Source: a virus. From it: 64,000 nt of DNA. Both the position numbers and the translations under genes were made by a program. Of this stretch, positions 19,294 through 56,939 are shown one piece after another. Position 1 is the stretch's first letter. The number at the start of each line of letters is the position of its first letter. Under the pieces are notes generated by a model. The model was not told where the DNA came from. It made no database searches and saw only the letters and a list, made by a program, of their open reading frames with translations. The stretch is taken from positions 124,001-188,000 of IMG/VR virus record IMGVR_UViG_3300028392_000029; one strand, given 5' to 3'.

Positions 19294-19985
19294 TGTACGA
19301 TATTATTTTTATTTCATACAATGAACCAGATGCAGATGCCAACTTTAATGCACTAAAAGAACGATTTCCTTTAGTCAAGCGTGTTAATGGTATTAAGGGT
19401 ATACATCAAGCTCATATTGCCGCTGCCAAAAAAAGTTTTACTAAAATGATGTGGGTAGTAGATGCAGATGCAGTTGTATTGAATTCTTTTAAATTTGATT
19501 ATCTAGTACCAGAGTGGGAAACAGATGTAGTACATGTTTGGCATAGTATTAATCCTATCAACAGTTTATCATATGGATATGGTGGGATAAAGCTATTGCC
19601 GAGATCGTTAACAGCAAGAATGAATGTTAACAATCCAGATATGACTATGAGTATAAGTAAGAAATTTAAAGTAATGAAAGAAGTTAGCAATATTACTGCA
19701 TTCAATACTGACGAGTTTACCACTTGGCGATCGGCATTTCGCGAGTGCGCAAAATTAGCATCTATTAAGGATTCTGAAGCTACTGAACGTTTAGACACAT
19801 GGTGTAATGTTAGTAATGGACATTACGGAATCTATGCAATTGCAGGTGCAGTTGCAGGTAGAAAATACGGTGAAAAAAATGCTGGCAATATACCAGCATT
19901 AAGTAAAATCAATGACTTTAAATGGCTAGCTGATCAATTCAAGAGTCATAGGGAAAATATCAGCAATAACCTTAGCACAGGCTAA
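19293..19985 (+). CDS. Putative glycosyltransferase (short paralogue)
   Basis: 230 residues, a shorter paralogue of the preceding gene: DIIFISYNEPDADANFNALK, WVVDADAVV (DxD-type), SYGYGGIKLLPRS, TWRSAFRECAKL. It lacks the longer C-terminal part of its neighbour. The start shares a base with the preceding stop (TAATG). Its last 60 nt are antisense to the end of thyX. Confidence 0.6.
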   Translation: MYDIIFISYNEPDADANFNALKERFPLVKRVNGIKGIHQAHIAAAKKSFTKMMWVVDADAVVLNSFKFDYLVPEWETDVVHVWHSINPINSLSYGYGGIKLLPRSLTARMNVNNPDMTMSISKKFKVMKEVSNITAFNTDEFTTWRSAFRECAKLASIKDSEATERLDTWCNVSNGHYGIYAIAGAVAGRKYGEKNAGNIPALSKINDFKWLADQFKSHRENISNNLSTG

Positions 19986-20591
19986 TGCTACTTCTTGATG
20001 CTCTTTTTGTGTACCATTAGCACTGCGTAGTTCAATAAAATGAATCCAACTGCGTAGTGTACCATTCATATAAATTCTGCTTTCTATAAGACCTTCTGGC
20101 AATACTGCTCGAGCTTGTTCTTTGGCAATGCCACGCTCTATTGCTTCTTGGTAGATCAAACGGCTATGTTCAATGATGAACTTTTGCTTGGCATCCCACC
20201 ATGCTTGTAACTCTGTATCGCTTGTGGAAATACTGTTCTGTCTATTTTTTGTATCTTGGAGTCGTGCTTCTCGCAGTACAAACGACAGGTCTCGAGTAGG
20301 ATCAGCATATCGCTGACTGAATTCTTGAAAGCTGAAGCTACGATGTCTGAGGATCTGTCGTGCAATATCTCTTGTTGTGGAGATTTCAATACAGGCTGAG
20401 ACCATTTCGAGTGGTGACCAGTGCTGGTGTTTGATGAGGTATCGGATGAGTTTTTCGGATGTTTCTGTATTGAGTTGATTGGAGGGATTAGACACACGGG
20501 CGCAATACGCAATGAGTTCCTGCGCATCTGTGAGGCCCAAATCTCTAAATTCCGGTGTAGGTTGGGAGTAACTGAGTAGTTGAACATGCAT
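19926..20591 (-). CDS. thyX: Flavin-dependent thymidylate synthase ThyX
   Basis: 221 residues. ThyX makes dTMP from dUMP using methylene-tetrahydrofolate and FAD/NADPH. The signature RHRSFSFQEFSQR (RHRxxSxxxxSxR) is complete and lies near residue 80. HQHWSPLEMVSACIEIST and the C-terminal RSWIHFIELR are the usual substrate and flavin contacts. Length is normal. It overlaps the convergent glycosyltransferase by 60 nt and lies 3 nt downstream of the next - strand gene. Confidence 0.93.
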   Translation of the reverse strand: MHVQLLSYSQPTPEFRDLGLTDAQELIAYCARVSNPSNQLNTETSEKLIRYLIKHQHWSPLEMVSACIEISTTRDIARQILRHRSFSFQEFSQRYADPTRDLSFVLREARLQDTKNRQNSISTSDTELQAWWDAKQKFIIEHSRLIYQEAIERGIAKEQARAVLPEGLIESRIYMNGTLRSWIHFIELRSANGTQKEHQEVALACAKVIADIFPMTLELIS

Positions 20592-21799: not shown

Positions 21800-21811
21800 A
21801 ATATCTCCTTT

Positions 21812-21833
21812 GAATGTACGTATATAATTATCT
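21812..21833 (-). promoter_or_regulatory. Late-promoter-like site, diverged third copy of a 22-bp element
   Basis: On the - strand this reads AGATAATTATATACGTACAT plus TC. It differs at only three positions from two identical 22-bp elements at 25255-25276 and 26024-26045, and lies about 13 nt upstream of the ATG at 21799. The box is GATAATTA rather than GATAAATA, so strength may differ. Confidence 0.45.
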
Positions 21834-22115
21834 CTGTTGCAAATACGGACATGCGATTGTGAAGAAACTGAGTTCTTTCTCTGACTCAAATCCAATATGC
21901 GTATTATAGACTATTGTGTTAGTATTGTCTAGGGCAATACCTTGCCCTATATAATACCTGTTGTTTAGATTGGATATAATCCAATGGTCGATCTTTTTAA
22001 TCAACCCTGGATTATATCTGTCTAAGTTTGTATATTTAAAATGCGGGCAGGCAAAATCAACCCTTCTTAAATTAAAATAATTTAAGGGATTTGGCTTACC
22101 ATTTTTTAAACTCAT
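21828..22115 (-). CDS. Hypothetical protein
   Basis: 95 residues (MSLKNGKPNPLNYFNLRRVD). Basic and aromatic-rich; not recognised. The start overlaps the upstream gene's stop in an ATGA, which supports translation. Its 3' end covers the 22-bp promoter-like element. Confidence 0.55.
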   Translation of the reverse strand: MSLKNGKPNPLNYFNLRRVDFACPHFKYTNLDRYNPGLIKKIDHWIISNLNNRYYIGQGIALDNTNTIVYNTHIGFESEKELSFFTIACPYLQQR

Positions 22116-23287
22116 GCGGTTTCTACCGCTTCTTCATAATATGCATGTTCGCCCCAAGGCGGCACGATTTTATCATTGCCGTGGATGATGAACACTGTAT
22201 CACAGTAATTTTCATCTCCCCAACTACTATAAGGATAACCATCTGTAAACATGATAAACTTTTTAGGGTTAATATCGTGTTCCTTCATATAATTCCAATT
22301 GGCATCAAAATCGGTACCACCGCCACCCATCACTTCGTAGTCATCGAACTCGTCCATTGAGTAGCCGTCAAAATCTGCTTCGTTGTACACACGGGTATCA
22401 AAGCACCAAACTTTAATTTTAAAGTCTTTGTATTCTTGCATAATACCTTTGATCTCTGACAAGAAATCTTTTGCCTGCTCGTCTCCAATTGAACCTGACA
22501 TATCAATTGCAATACAAATATCAATAGTTTCTTCGTAGTTAGTTCCAGGCAAAATTGCACTCATGTGCCATCCCTTACGGTTAGGGCGCATAAATGTGTA
22601 GTCATTCTTAATTGTACTTTGGATTTGTTGACGCAGAATCTCACGCCAGTTCATTTTTGCTTCTGTAAGTTCTTTAATCATGCGCTGTACACTAGCCGGA
22701 GTATTTCCCGCACCCGCTGCCTGTGCCGCTTGCATAGTTGCTTCGCGAACCTCGTCACGAATCTGCTTCATTTCTTCTTTAGTGTACTTTGGCTGTCCGT
22801 CTTTACCTTTAGGTCCAGTCCAATCAATGTGATCATCTAGCAATTGACCAATATCAATCTTATCAGCATTATCATACAACTCGTCGTAGATTTCTTCAGC
22901 ACCTTTGCCGTAGTATTTTGGATCGTTGTAGATATTAATCTCTGGAGGTTGTTCTCCAATACGATCTCGAGTCAATTGTCCGTTTACGCAATAGTCAGCC
23001 GCGGCATTCCAAATCTTACGGTCTCTATTTTCCACACGACCCATGTGATCAAAAACATTATGAAGAATCTCGTGTGCAATAACGAACTCTACTTGCTTAG
23101 TAGTCATTGGTGCAAAAAAATCACGATTAAAATAGATAGTACGGCCATCTGTTGCCGCAGTCATACACCACTCGGTGGCTTCTTCAATTTTAAGACGTGT
23201 AGCCATATTGCCAAAGAACGGATGACGAAGTAGCAAACCTACTCGTGCTACAATAATTTTATCGATGATTGGATCTACATGTGACAT
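22112..23287 (-). CDS. Metallopeptidase-like / VWA domain protein, MoxR partner
   Basis: 391 residues. N-terminal half: FVIAHEILHNVFDHMGR contains a zinc-metallopeptidase HExxH with a further His, followed by NAAADYCVN, as in the DUF2201-type putative metallopeptidase family. C-terminal half: DICIAIDMSGSIGDEQ is a MIDAS DxSxS motif, with TDGYPY near the end, defining a VWA-like domain. Family knowledge: such proteins work with MoxR AAA+ ATPases. The ATPase is the next gene upstream (74-nt gap). Substrate unknown. It has its own sigma70 promoter at 23318-23346. Confidence 0.8.
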   Translation of the reverse strand: MSHVDPIIDKIIVARVGLLLRHPFFGNMATRLKIEEATEWCMTAATDGRTIYFNRDFFAPMTTKQVEFVIAHEILHNVFDHMGRVENRDRKIWNAAADYCVNGQLTRDRIGEQPPEINIYNDPKYYGKGAEEIYDELYDNADKIDIGQLLDDHIDWTGPKGKDGQPKYTKEEMKQIRDEVREATMQAAQAAGAGNTPASVQRMIKELTEAKMNWREILRQQIQSTIKNDYTFMRPNRKGWHMSAILPGTNYEETIDICIAIDMSGSIGDEQAKDFLSEIKGIMQEYKDFKIKVWCFDTRVYNEADFDGYSMDEFDDYEVMGGGGTDFDANWNYMKEHDINPKKFIMFTDGYPYSSWGDENYCDTVFIIHGNDKIVPPWGEHAYYEEAVETA

Positions 23288-23317
23288 ATCTGCTCCTAAA
23301 TGTTTTACTATGTATAT

Positions 23318-23346
23318 AGTATAACACCTCCCGAAGGAGGTGTCAA
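23318..23346 (-). promoter_or_regulatory. Sigma70 promoter, TTGACA-17-TATACT
   Basis: On the - strand, TTGACA (23341-23346) and TATACT (23318-23323) are separated by exactly 17 nt, about 30 nt upstream of the VWA gene's ATG at 23287. The spacer is almost entirely a perfect hairpin (see next entry). Confidence 0.75.
23324..23343 (-). terminator. Hairpin with UUCG tetraloop inside promoter spacer
   Basis: ACACCTCC-TTCG-GGAGGTGT on the - strand: a perfect 8-bp stem closed by C(UUCG)G, an extra-stable tetraloop. It lies 19 nt downstream of the MoxR gene stop. There is no following T-run, so it may be a weak terminator, a 3' end stabiliser for the MoxR message, or an operator, since it also fills the -35/-10 spacer of the next promoter. 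Confidence 0.6.
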
Positions 23347-23361
23347 ATACAGCTAACTCGA

Positions 23362-24453
23362 TTACTTCTCAGTAGCGGCGCTAATGTACTTACCAAACTT
23401 GGCGTGGAATGCATCAAAACATTTGATCTCGTCTGGATCCAGTGGCAATTTGTAAGTGCTCAATGCCAATTTGGTACCCATAATAACCAATTCTGTTTCA
23501 AAGTTATTCATCATAAATTCGAAGAAGTTATTAACTTGATTATTCCAATTCTTTGCGTTTTTGTCGCAAGCATCTTTGAGCTCGTAGCACAACGAAATTG
23601 TCAAAGAATACATAGCTGAAATTTCTTTGGATTCCATTTTCTTAACAGAACCTGCCAAAATATCTGTAGGGTTAGGCATCTTGCTAGAAATTTTGCGGTG
23701 TGCCATAAAGCTAACAGCAAGTCCTTCACCTACCGAACCACTGATCAAATCAGTCAACGTATCAGCATCGCAGTCGTCGTCTGTGAGCAATTCGCTGACA
23801 AAAGACCAAGAGCGTGGAGTAGCAAACGCACGTGAGCTAGACTTTGGATCAAAGTCGTACAAGCTCTTCTTACTGAAGCTCAAGAAGCCGACTACATCTT
23901 GATGAATCTTGTTTTCAACAGCCCACTCAAAGTAGTCATCCCACTCAACAGTCATTTCCAAGTGAACAAAACGGTTAGCCAACGGAGCAGGCATACGGAA
24001 TGTAACACCCTTGTCAGTTTCACGGTTACCAGCCGCAACCATTACAACATTGTCAGGCAGTTTGTAAGTACCAACACGGCGATTCAAAATAAGCTGATAT
24101 GCCGCAGCCTGTACAGCAGGCGCCGCACTATTCATTTCATCTAAGAACAGTACAATCTTCTTGTGCTGTTTTGCCATCTCATCATCAGGCAATTCCGAAG
24201 GAGGAGCCCAAACCATTTTATTTGTGTTTGAGTCAAAATATGGAATACCTTTGATATCAGTAGGTTCCCACAAGCTCAAACGAACGTCAATTACATGAGC
24301 GTCGAGTTCTGTGCCCAACTGTTTAATAATGTCGGACTTACCAATTCCGGGAGGACCCCACAAGAAGATTGGACGCTTGTTTTTAAATGCTTTACGCAGG
24401 GATTTTTTAGCACCTTTAGGGCCAACTGTACGAGTAATTAGTTCCGAAGCCAT
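23362..24453 (-). CDS. MoxR-type AAA+ ATPase
   Basis: 363 residues. GPPGIGKS (about 33-40) is Walker A, VLFLDEMN (about 102-109) Walker B, and VVMVAAGN sensor 1. ETDKGVTFRMPAPLANRFVH is the arginine-finger region typical of the MoxR/RavA clade. Family role: chaperone-like remodelling together with a VWA-domain partner, which here is the downstream gene. Preceded by a consensus sigma70 promoter. Confidence 0.85.
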   Translation of the reverse strand: MASELITRTVGPKGAKKSLRKAFKNKRPIFLWGPPGIGKSDIIKQLGTELDAHVIDVRLSLWEPTDIKGIPYFDSNTNKMVWAPPSELPDDEMAKQHKKIVLFLDEMNSAAPAVQAAAYQLILNRRVGTYKLPDNVVMVAAGNRETDKGVTFRMPAPLANRFVHLEMTVEWDDYFEWAVENKIHQDVVGFLSFSKKSLYDFDPKSSSRAFATPRSWSFVSELLTDDDCDADTLTDLISGSVGEGLAVSFMAHRKISSKMPNPTDILAGSVKKMESKEISAMYSLTISLCYELKDACDKNAKNWNNQVNNFFEFMMNNFETELVIMGTKLALSTYKLPLDPDEIKCFDAFHAKFGKYISAATEK

Positions 24454-24508
24454 TTTATTTCCAATCTTAGTTAAAAAGTGTTGTTGAGTTAACGCTGTCT
24501 ATGTATGT

Positions 24509-24537
24509 ATTATACAGGGCTCTTTGCTGGTTGTCAA
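24509..24537 (-). promoter_or_regulatory. Consensus sigma70 promoter, TTGACA-17-TATAAT
   Basis: TTGACA (24532-24537) and TATAAT (24509-24514) on the - strand with a 17-nt spacer, i.e. full consensus. It lies 56 nt upstream of the MoxR-like gene, leaving a leader of about 50 nt. Confidence 0.8.
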
Positions 24538-24545
24538 CAGTATTT

Positions 24546-24956
24546 TTACAAATTATTGGTTATTTTGGCTAGATCTTTTTCTCTTTCTGTCATGGCTTTG
24601 ATCAGTCCAAATTTTCGAATATCGTCCGAAAACAAATAGAGCTCAAAACTTTTACGTTCTGAAAAAACGGAAATACTTTGGTTTGTAAGATAGTAAGGAC
24701 AGTCAATATATCTTTCCAAAAAGATAATTGTTTGGGGACTTAGCTCAATCGGCTCAGTGAAAGGTACTTCATACATTTTGATTTCTAACGTAGTAGTTAG
24801 GAATTCAAATCCATTTTCAGTTAATCGAAAAGCATTTGGTTTGTTAACTCTATTAGATTGCCACCAGATCCTATTGTACAGTTCTACATTTGCATCATCT
24901 GTACTTTTGCCCCATTCTTGTAAGAATATTTTGGTTAGGCAATCTCTGGTTATCAT
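24546..24956 (-). CDS. Conserved phage hypothetical protein
   Basis: 136 residues, MITRDCLTKIFLQEWGKSTD onward; FRLTENGFEFL resembles segments found in small proteins of T4-like phages. No domain recognised. It overlaps the upstream gene by 4 nt and ends just before the MoxR promoter. Confidence 0.6.
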   Translation of the reverse strand: MITRDCLTKIFLQEWGKSTDDANVELYNRIWWQSNRVNKPNAFRLTENGFEFLTTTLEIKMYEVPFTEPIELSPQTIIFLERYIDCPYYLTNQSISVFSERKSFELYLFSDDIRKFGLIKAMTEREKDLAKITNNL

Positions 24957-25237
24957 TTTACAACAGTACCTTGAGTTAATTTTATTACTTGGAAATCTTC
25001 ACAACTAAATGTAAGATTTAATTTTTTAGCTAAGTTATGCGCATGCCCGGGATTACTAAAACTTACTTTCTTATATTTAGGTCCAGGATAACTTGTTAGG
25101 CTATTAAAACTTTTCAAATTGAATGGCTCGTTTTTATAAAAGACAGCCCAAATAGCTTCGGCTTCTAGGATTTGTTCTGCTTTATAAGTTTTCTTGTTAA
25201 CATGTTCTAATAAAACTGCTGGTTTTGGTCTTGACAT
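24953..25237 (-). CDS. Conserved phage hypothetical protein
   Basis: 94 residues (MSRPKPAVLLEHVNKKTYKA). Basic, with a GPKYKKVSFSNPGHAHNLAK segment. Function unknown. Located 18-38 nt downstream of a late-promoter-like element and overlapping the following gene by ATGA. Confidence 0.6.
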   Translation of the reverse strand: MSRPKPAVLLEHVNKKTYKAEQILEAEAIWAVFYKNEPFNLKSFNSLTSYPGPKYKKVSFSNPGHAHNLAKKLNLTFSCEDFQVIKLTQGTVVK

Positions 25238-25254
25238 AATATGCGCACCTTCAA

Positions 25255-25276
25255 TAATGTACGCATATATTTATCT
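25255..25276 (-). promoter_or_regulatory. Late-promoter-like 22-bp element, copy 1
   Basis: The - strand reads AGATAAATATATGCGTACAT plus TA, containing GATAAATA. It is identical over 22 bp to the element at 26024-26045 and lies 18 nt upstream of the ATG at 25237, overlapping the end region of the upstream gene. Confidence 0.6.
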
Positions 25277-25522
25277 CTATTTGTCTGCAAAACCGCCGCC
25301 GTCCATGGTCACAGTTACTACTTCGTTGTTAGTGCTATTTTTGATAGCATTAAACATGGTCTCGTAGTCTTGTAGCAGTTTATCTTGGATTTCAATTAAT
25401 GCTAAGTTAAGCAATCTAGCCTGCTGAATAGGTAATTTAACTTCCTTTTGCTGGCTTAATTCTGCCGCTCTTAGCGTGTGCGAAAATTGAGTAATGGGAG
25501 TTAGATTAATCTGATTTTGCAT
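25277..25522 (-). CDS. Small phage protein, helical
   Basis: 81 residues (MQNQINLTPITQFSHTLRAA). Probably helical (LPIQQARLLNLALIEIQDKL), with a Gly-rich end. Not recognised. It overlaps the upstream gene by 17 nt. Confidence 0.55.
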   Translation of the reverse strand: MQNQINLTPITQFSHTLRAAELSQQKEVKLPIQQARLLNLALIEIQDKLLQDYETMFNAIKNSTNNEVVTVTMDGGGFADK

Positions 25523-54055: not shown

Positions 54056-54685
54056 CTATGCTTTAACGATACGTTCAATCTTTGTTATTACGCCACCGAG
54101 ATGCATTTTAGTCAACAGTAGTGTATTGTCGCCTGTTACATAGAAGTGTGTTCCGCCCCAACTTCTTGATTTTCCTAGCTCTTTTTTGCAACTTTTAGTC
54201 AGTTTTAGTTTGTCACGGCCAGCCGCCCATTCAACAAACGCTTGATAATCTTGGTTAGTTTTACCTAAAGTCACTCGATAATCGTAATTTGTTTTAGGCA
54301 TTATTATAGTATTAGCCGCTAGAGGTGAATCTTTTGGTGGCTCAGATATATATTTCACATTGCTACTATCTAATTTAGACAGCAGAGTAACATAATCAAG
54401 GTTGTTAGTATATACGCTGACCCACGGAGATTCTACCCTAATTTCTATATCCTTCATTTTCTTCAAGGCAGTTGCAAGTCTAATAGCATAATCTAGCTGA
54501 TCTTGAGTTTTGATATTATTAATACGCCACACATCGTCGGGCTTTTGAAGTAAAGAAGTTTTACTTAGTAGTTTTAATGCAGTTTCCATATCACCGCTTC
54601 TAAACGAACTAGCGCCAGAACATATCAACACAATTTTGTATTGATATGTTCCTTTAAATAAACTTCTAGTTGTTTTGTACAACAT
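54056..54685 (-). CDS. Conserved phage hypothetical protein
   Basis: 209 residues. TTRSLFKGTYQYKIVLICSG, then ASSFRSGD is a motif of T4-like phage proteins; HFYVTGDNTLLLTKMHLGGV at the C-terminus is likewise conserved. Overlaps the clpA-like gene by 20 nt. Function unknown; ends the proteostasis operon. Confidence 0.6.
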   Translation of the reverse strand: MLYKTTRSLFKGTYQYKIVLICSGASSFRSGDMETALKLLSKTSLLQKPDDVWRINNIKTQDQLDYAIRLATALKKMKDIEIRVESPWVSVYTNNLDYVTLLSKLDSSNVKYISEPPKDSPLAANTIIMPKTNYDYRVTLGKTNQDYQAFVEWAAGRDKLKLTKSCKKELGKSRSWGGTHFYVTGDNTLLLTKMHLGGVITKIERIVKA

Positions 54686-56939
54686 CTTCTAAGTTGCTCT
54701 CAATAGCCAGTAATGCAATTTTAGATACTTTTGGTTTAGCAATTAACGAAATTGCATCGCCATCAACACTAATAGTGACCCAGCCGCCATTTTTAAGATC
54801 TCCAAACAACATCAATCGAGCAAGGTCGCGTTTAATTTCCTTGTCAATAACACGCTGTAACGGACGAGCACCCATCTTAGGATCAAAGCCTTTTTCGATG
54901 AGCCAATTAACTGCTTCCTTATCGATCTTAACTCGGATACCTTTATCTTTAACTTGGTCTTTAAGTTGATCTATAAACTTATTAACAATTTTTATCATTG
55001 TTTCTTTTCCAAGTTTATTAAATGTAACAACACCATCTAAACGATTGCGGAACTCCGGAGTTAAGAATTTCTTCAAATCAGCATCGCTATAGTCTTTATC
55101 TTGCTTACCAAATCCAATAGCATTTTTGTCTGCTGATTGTGCTCCGGCATTAGTAGTAAGGATAAGAACAATATTACGGCAGTCAGCTTTTTTGCCATTT
55201 GATCCGGTAATAAATCCGTTATCCATAAGCTGTAGCAATACAGTTATTACATCTGGATGCGCTTTTTCAATCTCATCTAGCAACAGTACAGCATTAGGTG
55301 CTTCTTGAATACTGGTAATTAGTTGACCCGCATTTTCTTCAAATCCAACATAACCGGGAGGGCTGCCGATCAACTTACTGATACTGTGTTTTTCTTGATA
55401 TTCACTCATATCAAAGCGCAGTAACTTAACACCCAAGTTTTTAGCAAGTGACTTAGCAGTTTCGGTTTTACCAGTACCAGTCGGCCCCATGAATACAAAC
55501 GATCCAACGGGTTTATTTTCTGTTTTAAGTCCAGCCTGTGCAACAACAATCTTATCAACGATTTCGGTGATAGCAAGTTCTTGCCCATACACTTCTGTTT
55601 CAAGTTTAGTTTGTAAACTAATTAAATTAACACTTTCAGTTTCTGAAACTTGCTCTTCCGGCATATTGACCATCTTAGCTAGTTCGAATTGAATTTCACG
55701 CTCGCCGATAATGCGCTCATCAGCTAGTTTGAGATTGAAGCGTGAGCAAGCTACATCAATTAAATCAATGGCCTTGTCCGGAAGTTTTTTATCTGTTTGA
55801 TACTTAACTGACAATTTAATTGCCGCATCAATTGCATCGTCCTTGATCTTAACATTATGGAATCCTTCGTAGTATTTCTTAATACCTTTAAGGATCTGTT
55901 TAGTAACTTCTGTTGTAGGCTCGTCAACAGTAATGCGTTGGAAACGACGCATGAGCGCACGATCCTTTTCGAAGTGCTTACGATATTCTTCCCAGGTAGT
56001 CGATGCTACAACTTTAATATTGCCTTTGCTTAGTGCAGGCTTCATCATGTTGGCAAGATCGTTCGCTGAATTGCTTGCCGACCCAGCACCACTAATCATG
56101 TGTGCTTCGTCAATAAACAAGACAGTCTTACCTTTCTTTTGTAGGGCTTTAATAACATGCTTAAAGCGTTCTTCAAAGTCTCCGCGATATTTAGAGCCAG
56201 CTAACATAGCACTGATGTCTAGATTATAAACTGTATACTCTTTCAAGAAATCAGGAACAGCACCATTTACAATATTATGAGCCATGCCCTCGGCGATCGC
56301 AGTCTTACCTACACCAGGGTCACCAACTAAGATCACGTTGTTTTTGCTACGACGACCTAGTGCTAACGCAATATTTTCTAATTCGTCAACTCTGCCAATA
56401 ACTGGATCGATTTTGTTTTTCTTAACTTCTTGATTCAGATTAGTAGTAAATGCCTGAAGGGCTTTATCACTATGCGAATCAGCTGGGCTATCGTCCGGAC
56501 CATTTTCCATATTATTATTTAAATATTCAGCAAATTTATCTTTATCGATATTAGCTTGTGCAACAAAAAAGTGCGCCCAACTACGTTTCTCGCCCATCAT
56601 AGCCAAGAATACATCCGTTGGTTCAATACGCTGTCGCCCGTTGAATAGGACTTGAGTAAACGCCCTATTAAGTACACGCTCTACACTTTGAGTTTTCTTA
56701 GGTTTAACCACTACATCTGGTACTGTAATTTCACTACATTTATTATGTAGATAATCTTGTAGGTTTGTTTTAAGGGAATTAGCATCAGCGCCGAATCCTT
56801 GAATACAGTTAGTAAACCCATCTTCTGCAAGCATAGCAAACAACAGATGTTCTATTGTTAGATATTCGTGATGAAGTTTTTTAGAAGTTTCTATAGCTCT
56901 TTCAAAGACTGCTTGAAGATTATCGCTAGGTTCGACCAT
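54666..56939 (-). CDS. clpA: ClpA-like AAA+ unfoldase
   Basis: 757 residues. Clp N domain (LQAVFERAIETSKKLHHEYL, TIEHLLFAML); D1 with GDPGVGKT, VLFIDEAH and arginine finger region; D2 with GPTGTGKT and LLLDEIEKAHPDV. There is no ClpB-type middle coiled-coil insertion. KNAIGFGKQDKDYSDADLKK contains IGF where ClpA has its ClpP-binding IGL loop, so it could dock on host ClpP. Length equals ClpA (758). In an operon with DnaJ and peptide deformylase. Confidence 0.88.
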   Translation of the reverse strand: MVEPSDNLQAVFERAIETSKKLHHEYLTIEHLLFAMLAEDGFTNCIQGFGADANSLKTNLQDYLHNKCSEITVPDVVVKPKKTQSVERVLNRAFTQVLFNGRQRIEPTDVFLAMMGEKRSWAHFFVAQANIDKDKFAEYLNNNMENGPDDSPADSHSDKALQAFTTNLNQEVKKNKIDPVIGRVDELENIALALGRRSKNNVILVGDPGVGKTAIAEGMAHNIVNGAVPDFLKEYTVYNLDISAMLAGSKYRGDFEERFKHVIKALQKKGKTVLFIDEAHMISGAGSASNSANDLANMMKPALSKGNIKVVASTTWEEYRKHFEKDRALMRRFQRITVDEPTTEVTKQILKGIKKYYEGFHNVKIKDDAIDAAIKLSVKYQTDKKLPDKAIDLIDVACSRFNLKLADERIIGEREIQFELAKMVNMPEEQVSETESVNLISLQTKLETEVYGQELAITEIVDKIVVAQAGLKTENKPVGSFVFMGPTGTGKTETAKSLAKNLGVKLLRFDMSEYQEKHSISKLIGSPPGYVGFEENAGQLITSIQEAPNAVLLLDEIEKAHPDVITVLLQLMDNGFITGSNGKKADCRNIVLILTTNAGAQSADKNAIGFGKQDKDYSDADLKKFLTPEFRNRLDGVVTFNKLGKETMIKIVNKFIDQLKDQVKDKGIRVKIDKEAVNWLIEKGFDPKMGARPLQRVIDKEIKRDLARLMLFGDLKNGGWVTISVDGDAISLIAKPKVSKIALLAIESNLEDVVQNN

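Follow-up and report, generated by a model that had tools for sequence, protein, structure and literature searches.

The window analysed here is a stretch of 64,000 nucleotides (G+C, 38.5%) that corresponds to positions 124001-188000 of a virus record of 223,176 bp, IMGVR_UViG_3300028392_000029. Because this record encodes a tail sheath, a portal, a major head protein, and a large terminase, its source is taken to be a contractile-tailed phage; megablast of window positions 20000-44000 against the phage collection returned no near DNA match. On the minus strand lie two genes, first that of a MoxR-class ATPase and then that of a partner protein that combines a zincin-like domain with a VWA domain (Table 1). 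A first-pass annotation, made from the sequence alone, had placed a MoxR ATPase and a metallopeptidase/VWA partner at 22112-24453 and had described their Walker, HExxH, and MIDAS motifs as intact; the open reading frames and the Pfam matches bear out the two genes, and the motifs are not only intact but near-invariant in relatives. Comparison with 4 or 5 relatives per gene (80-95% identity) gives dN/dS values of 0.03-0.10 for both genes, indicating that both are under strong purifying selection. A search of positions 21800-25300 against Rfam returned no RNA family.

Table 1. Features of the ATPase/partner locus (window coordinates)
Feature	Position	Strand	Basis or conservation
σ70 consensus promoter of the ATPase gene, TTGACA-17-TATAAT	24509-24537	minus	conserved in 38/38 upstream regions of related IMG/VR contigs
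MoxR-class AAA+ ATPase, 363 aa; PHROG 1297 ("ATPase"), N4 gp24 family	23362-24453	minus	ORF, Pfam, PHROG, tblastn, model, PDB matches
Walker A GPPGIGKS, residues 33-40	24334-24357	minus	sequence; K39 fully conserved in alignments A2 and A5
Walker B LFLDE, residues 102-106	24136-24150	minus	E106 invariant, D105 nearly so (A2, A5)
Promoter of the partner gene, TTGACA-17-TATACT, extended -10 TG, spacer wholly hairpin	23318-23346	minus	conserved in 47/47 distinct intergenics of related IMG/VR contigs
Hairpin ACACCTCC-TTCG-GGAGGTGT between -35 and -10, 18 nt downstream of the stop codon of the ATPase gene	23324-23343	minus	RNA fold, covariation
Shine-Dalgarno AGGAG of the partner gene	23293-23297	minus	sequence
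Partner protein of 391 aa, with a DUF2201_N zincin-like domain at the N-terminus, a linker, and a VWA domain at the C-terminus; PHROG 1314, N4 gp25 family	22112-23287	minus	
HExxH (HEILH, residues 72-76) on helix 63-78	23060-23074	minus	invariant in alignment A4
D98, the proposed third metal ligand, on the following helix (90-107)	22994-22996	minus	invariant in A4; AlphaFold2 helix
MIDAS DxSxS (DMSGS, residues 262-266) + T325 + D349	22490-22504 (DxSxS)	minus	invariant in reference phages and A4

The ATPase matches the Pfam families AAA (2.5e-8) and AAA_3, the MoxR family (6e-7), and has motifs of a MoxR AAA+ protein: K39 of Walker A, D105 and E106 of Walker B, the sensor-1 residue N143, and the Arg finger residues R161 and R214. 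Walker A, Walker B, and N143 are near-invariant across relatives. When the AlphaFold2 model (pLDDT 90.7) is compared with solved structures, the top folds are NorQ, on its own and in complex with the VWA domain of NorD, and CbbQ, and thus MoxR proteins that partner VWA proteins head the list; the best PDB profile match is Midasin (3.2e-20).

The partner matches DUF2201_N (2.1e-37) and DUF2201/VWA (6.2e-16). (The label of PHROG 1314, "HNH endonuclease", was rejected, since there is no HNH Pfam match and DUF2201_N and VWA span the protein; this misnomer for DUF2201-VWA proteins is widespread in RefSeq phage annotation.) In the C-terminal half, all of the residues of a VWA/MIDAS domain are there (D262-x-S264-x-S266, T325, and D349), and profile searches with this half match many VWA/I domains and MDN1-MIDAS, among others. 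For the N-terminal domain, the best PDB profile match is to MJ1213 (4qhf; E 1.7e-4), a minigluzincin; it spans residues 25-75 and so reaches as far as the HExxH helix. M48 peptidases give weak profile matches. MJ1213 is a stand-alone protein of 110 residues that lacks a VWA domain. The AlphaFold2 model of the partner (pLDDT 81.6) has a pTM of 0.54, so that the arrangement of its domains is uncertain; its layout is zincin-like, in that the active-site helix (residues 63-78) is followed by the helix (residues 90-107) that carries D98.

In the partners of 16 reference phages, H81, N102, Y134, and the MIDAS residues are invariant; H72, H76, and D98 are missing only in Agrobacterium phage OLIVR2, and E73 is missing in two phages, OLIVR2 and Atu_ph07 (which has Q instead). 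Across IMG/VR sequences, 55 of them close and 33 divergent, the metal-site residues are also invariant. HExxH counts in the set from the contig search are biased, given that the search patterns, which came from a four-row alignment, include the HExxH region. The OLIVR2 couple (locus L225) is degenerate: H72, E73, H76, and D98 have been lost together, as has the Walker B Asp of the ATPase, and the MIDAS is kept. Because D98 is lost jointly with the HExxH residues in OLIVR2, and because the model places it on the following helix, it is taken as the putative third metal ligand; the predicted ligands are then H72, H76, and, probably, D98.

The couple is found well beyond the window phage. A tblastn search of INPHARED finds the partner in 801 records and the ATPase in 830, and gp24 and gp25 of phage N4 are the same couple. 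A MoxR ATPase together with a metallopeptidase-vWA fusion has been described in jumbo phages by Iyer et al. (2021), who proposed a function in virion assembly with proteolysis (PMC7824862), and the window pair has the same composition, a MoxR gene and a gene whose product joins an N-terminal metallopeptidase-like domain to a vWA domain. The couple is already known, then, as a widespread phage family, of which the window pair is a further case. The ATPase is present in 208 of the 218 loci that carry the partner (VWA) ORF, at most a few kb away. The spacing of the two genes varies: in bacterial loci the start and stop often overlap, in PA5oct the genes are 3 kb apart, and in rV5-like phages they are separated by several genes. 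(The MoxR gene of rV5 lies a few kb from the VWA gene, on the opposite strand; the "anti-sigma factor" that adjoins the VWA gene in rV5 and GAP31 was considered as the ATPase and ruled out, as it is without Walker motifs.)

In trees of both proteins (FastTree; long branches present), the window proteins fall within a phage clade with 99-100% support. The pairwise distances of the ATPase and the partner correlate (r = 0.90; 0.83 among distant pairs), a relationship that shared descent alone is able to produce. From the conserved adjacency of the genes (208/218), this parallel divergence, and the solved NorQ-NorD complexes, we infer that the ATPase and the partner interact. The first-pass annotation had spoken of a bacterial-type two-gene remodelling system. 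The two-gene remodelling system is supported, but "bacterial-type" is misleading, given the roughly 800 phage records for each protein, N4 gp24/gp25, the phage clades, and the 2021 description; across the phage relatives both the motifs and the adjacency are conserved, and the couple is not a bacterial rarity in a phage.

The proposal that each gene has its own strong promoter also holds. Both sites have σ70 hexamers with a spacing within 16-18 nt, and each is conserved in every related sequence compared (Table 1). Exact matches to TTGACA-17-TATA[AC]T occur at 15 sites in the 223-kb record, compared with a total of 3 over 20 dinucleotide shuffles. Eight of the 15 are packed within 5.1 kb, at 1.5-6.6 kb (G000:C1:1500-6630), a stretch that is probably the early region; the stretch with the terminase, sheath, head, and portal genes has one exact consensus promoter. 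This clustering means that the couple has the promoter type of the probable early region, and the strength and host type of its promoters suggest that it is probably made from early or middle infection, although consensus promoters alone do not prove early expression. In N4, gp24 and gp25 are middle transcripts (PMC4193335), and in N4-like phages the pair neighbours the genes for RNA polymerase 2 and for nucleotide and replication functions. Among 30 divergent intergenics of the couple, 15 contain a promoter that matches at 11/12 positions or better (0.06 expected from shuffles, and none found in control stretches), which indicates that phages have widely retained separate transcription of the motor and the adaptor.

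Taken together, these results make it rather likely that the couple is a MoxR AAA+/VWA remodelling machine of the NorQD-CbbQO-Midasin type, with separately transcribed genes, a client that is perhaps cleaved, and early or middle action. The class of mechanism, ATP-driven remodelling, is well supported by homology; most likely, the couple uses ATP to remodel a client bound at the MIDAS, and perhaps cleaves it as well. In CbbQO, NorQD, and Rea1, the ring acts together with VWA adaptors (PMC4660213, PMC13036017). In NorQD, the VWA domain inserts a finger into the pore of the ring, the C-terminus touches the ring, and the complex drives the insertion of a metal, FeB (PMC13036017); in CbbQO, the MIDAS attaches to the client at an acidic residue (PMC4660213). 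The mechanism adopted for the phage couple is modelled on these pore and ring contacts of NorQD and on the MIDAS-client binding of CbbQO. The ATPase, judging from its family and fold, would form a hexameric ring. The VWA domain of the partner would dock on this ring, and its MIDAS metal would grip an acidic residue of the client, by analogy with CbbO, Rea1, and NorD. ATP hydrolysis would twist the client, and the N-terminal gluzincin-like domain, in which H72, H76, and probably D98 would be ligands and E73 the base, may cleave or mature it. The target would be a phage or host complex, acted on before or during assembly. Each gene would be transcribed alone: the ATPase transcript would meet a UNCG hairpin right after the stop codon, and the same 29 bp form the promoter of the partner gene. 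Separate transcription could allow unequal amounts of the two proteins, as a six-to-one motor needs.

Several features set the window couple apart from the systems that it resembles. It is like the couple of Iyer et al. and N4 gp24/gp25 in its protein families, gene order, and domain fusion, but it has a promoter-hairpin element between the genes. With NorQ-NorD it shares a MoxR motor, predicted to be a hexamer, and a VWA partner, and among solved folds NorQ is the nearest to the phage ATPase; however, the phage partner has a DUF2201_N metallopeptidase-like domain, and a nitric oxide reductase client was not seen. The rubisco activase CbbQ-CbbO likewise joins a MoxR motor to a VWA adaptor with a client-binding MIDAS (CbbO), but the N-terminal part of CbbO is without discernible homology to characterised proteins, and its client is rubisco. 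A viral MoxR-VWA couple is also represented by ATV p618/p892 (cited in PMC7824862), but that couple is without a peptidase domain and belongs to an archaeal virus whose tail develops outside the cell.

A different function, a virion-assembly chaperone with a maturation protease, follows from the proposal of Iyer et al. (PMC7824862): by analogy with ATV p618/p892, the couple would build the head, neck, or tail, and the metallopeptidase would trim a structural protein. The MoxR ATPase of phAPEC6, gp265c, has been found in purified virions (6 unique peptides, 19% coverage; PMC7247149), and the PA5oct homologue of the ATPase carries an ESI-MS/MS note; both observations fit virion assembly better than early action. 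In addition, the genes that precede the pair in phAPEC6 and GAP32 encode neck, tail, and virion proteins. However, the VWA partner of phAPEC6, gp264c, is missing from the same virion list, on which thymidylate synthase, RecA-like, and SSB proteins do appear (PMC7247149). With non-structural proteins listed and gp264c absent, the ATPase may have been carried over into the preparation. The middle expression of the N4-like pair and its position among RNA polymerase 2, nucleotide, and replication genes also speak against an assembly role, as do the host-type promoters of the couple in the window phage, which are distant from the genes for the head and sheath. We regard a function in virion assembly as possible but unlikely.

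The N-terminal site might also carry a metal rather than cut a protein, with the ring opening a client metalloenzyme for metal insertion, as NorQD does for FeB. Such a function would be in keeping with NorQ as the closest fold of the ATPase and with the metal insertion driven by NorQD (PMC13036017), as well as with the loss of the ligand set as a unit in OLIVR2, where the MIDAS is kept. On the other hand, an HExxH with its glutamate (E73 is present in all but two of the reference phages) and a downstream helix make up the layout of a peptidase, and a metalloenzyme neighbour shared among the phages was not seen in the annotated loci, leaving metal delivery an improbable function. For the remodelling machine with possible cleavage, which we prefer, the near-invariant metal site and MIDAS point to residues worth mutating. 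The occurrence of the couple in about 800 phage records, under a widely misapplied name for the partner, includes phage N4, whose couple is accessible in E. coli K-12.

Relatives of the couple are also present in bacteria, where a four-gene operon (L286, L289, L290, L295, L296, L297, L298, and others) encodes an RT protein, the product of an unknown gene, a MoxR protein, and a DUF2201-VWA protein. The RT protein has 950-1100 aa with a C-terminal reverse transcriptase (PADLOC assigns that of L290 to RT_XIII, 1e-81), and the second gene encodes about 310-350 aa with no Pfam match. This operon looks like a retron-like defence operon, and no description of it was found in the open-access literature. 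(Membership of the phage couple in a VMAP/ternary conflict system was ruled out, as there is only a sub-threshold bpMoxR match and the third component was not seen.) That the phage pair is a counter-defence decoy, which blocks or mimics this RT-bearing system, is very improbable: the four genes do occur together in at least 8 bacterial loci, but both phage genes are intact and evolve under strong purifying selection, phages with widely differing hosts carry the pair, and PADLOC returns no match for the partner and only weak AAA matches for the ATPase.

The hairpin that fills the spacer of the partner promoter has a predicted RNA folding energy of -16.5 kcal/mol (z -5.3). A promoter precedes the partner gene in 79 of 80 close loci, and the sole exception is cut by the contig end. 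In one of these loci, L011, about 600 bp (a gene) has been inserted between the pair; the hairpin promoter stays at the 3' end of the ATPase gene, and the promoter directly before the partner, which is the one counted in the 79, is a weaker site beside the inserted gene. All 20 distinct hairpin promoters have a 17-nt spacer, and in all 20 the eight base pairs, from the ACA of the -35 element through the TGT before the -10 element, can form (100% paired). Three of the pairs change on both sides (21 cells, compared with 5.9 in shuffles), and the covariation score, 0.384 versus 0.084, is destroyed by sliding the partner strand. Most of the sense-strand loops are UNCG. The hairpin is stable and GC-rich, like that of a terminator; no U-rich tract follows the stem, where the sequence is the U-poor UAUACUAU and a terminator scan that needs 5 T in 8 gives no hit. 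Other hairpins with UUCG or UCCG loops, some of them followed by T runs, are present in the same genome, and loops of this class thus appear to be the habit of this genome.

The fused promoter-hairpin occurs once in the record (exact-consensus scan), but it recurs among viral contigs. When three base pairs were left free, a scan of these contigs found at least 195 elements; among the matches listed, 167 are at this gene pair, 28 are elsewhere, and 183 have all eight pairs. A second scan, with a fixed loop and four free pairs, found 117 elements, 41 of them elsewhere, and 37 of these 41 have at least three of the four pairs (about 5% would be expected to by chance). The elements that are elsewhere, in unrelated phages, mostly start no more than about 25 nt from the stop codon of the preceding gene, and the genes that follow them include those for a clamp-loader-like ATPase and a small lipoprotein-like protein (named by eye). 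In divergent phages, many intergenics of the couple have a hairpin, often with a T run, ahead of the promoter, and L262 and L264 have no gap between the hairpin and the -35 element. The fused element looks like the most compact form of the separate transcription of motor and adaptor.

A tentative interpretation, which we find plausible though short of probable, is that the 29-bp element is a fused form of phage punctuation: a σ70 promoter whose spacer hairpin would end or protect the upstream RNA, with ACA and TGT at the base of the stem. It would have evolved from a hairpin followed by a promoter, such as divergent phages have between the genes of the couple, and it recurs before unrelated phage genes. 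If this is confirmed, a hairpin promoter stops one transcript and starts the next within 29 bp. A dyad between the -35 and -10 elements is a known position for a regulator, and instead of encoding an RNA hairpin the spacer dyad could be the operator of a dimeric phage regulator or act as a cruciform switch in the DNA; a dimer that co-evolves with its site would also give symmetric changes. However, the mostly UNCG loops of the sense strand are closed by C-G, and some stems have U-G or G-U pairs, features that fit RNA. Moreover, the same layout precedes unrelated genes, where it closely follows the stop codon of the gene upstream, and in L011 the element stays with the ATPase 3' end in spite of the insertion before the VWA gene. 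A DNA-level function is therefore doubtful, and the element is discussed here as an RNA hairpin. A search of the open-access literature for a hairpin within a phage promoter spacer found nothing relevant; within that literature, the promoter-hairpin is the part of the locus that was not found described, whereas the couple itself is known.

Three further observations concern the surroundings of the couple. A ThyX gene lies nearby in the window, at 19926-20591, and a thymidylate synthase gene is also near the couple in GAP32, S-TIM5, and Vibrio phage 2.275.O; in phAPEC6, the genes for the thymidylate synthase gp259c and the MoxR protein gp265c are near each other, and both products are in the virion proteome. 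A separate ATPase of 757 aa, encoded at 54666-56939 on the minus strand of the window, matches PHROG 4871, "ATP-dependent protease" (5.9e-248). Finally, an inverted repeat of eight base pairs, TAGGGCAA-GGTA-TTGCCCTA, is located at 21930-21949 of the window, inside a small ORF that follows the partner gene.
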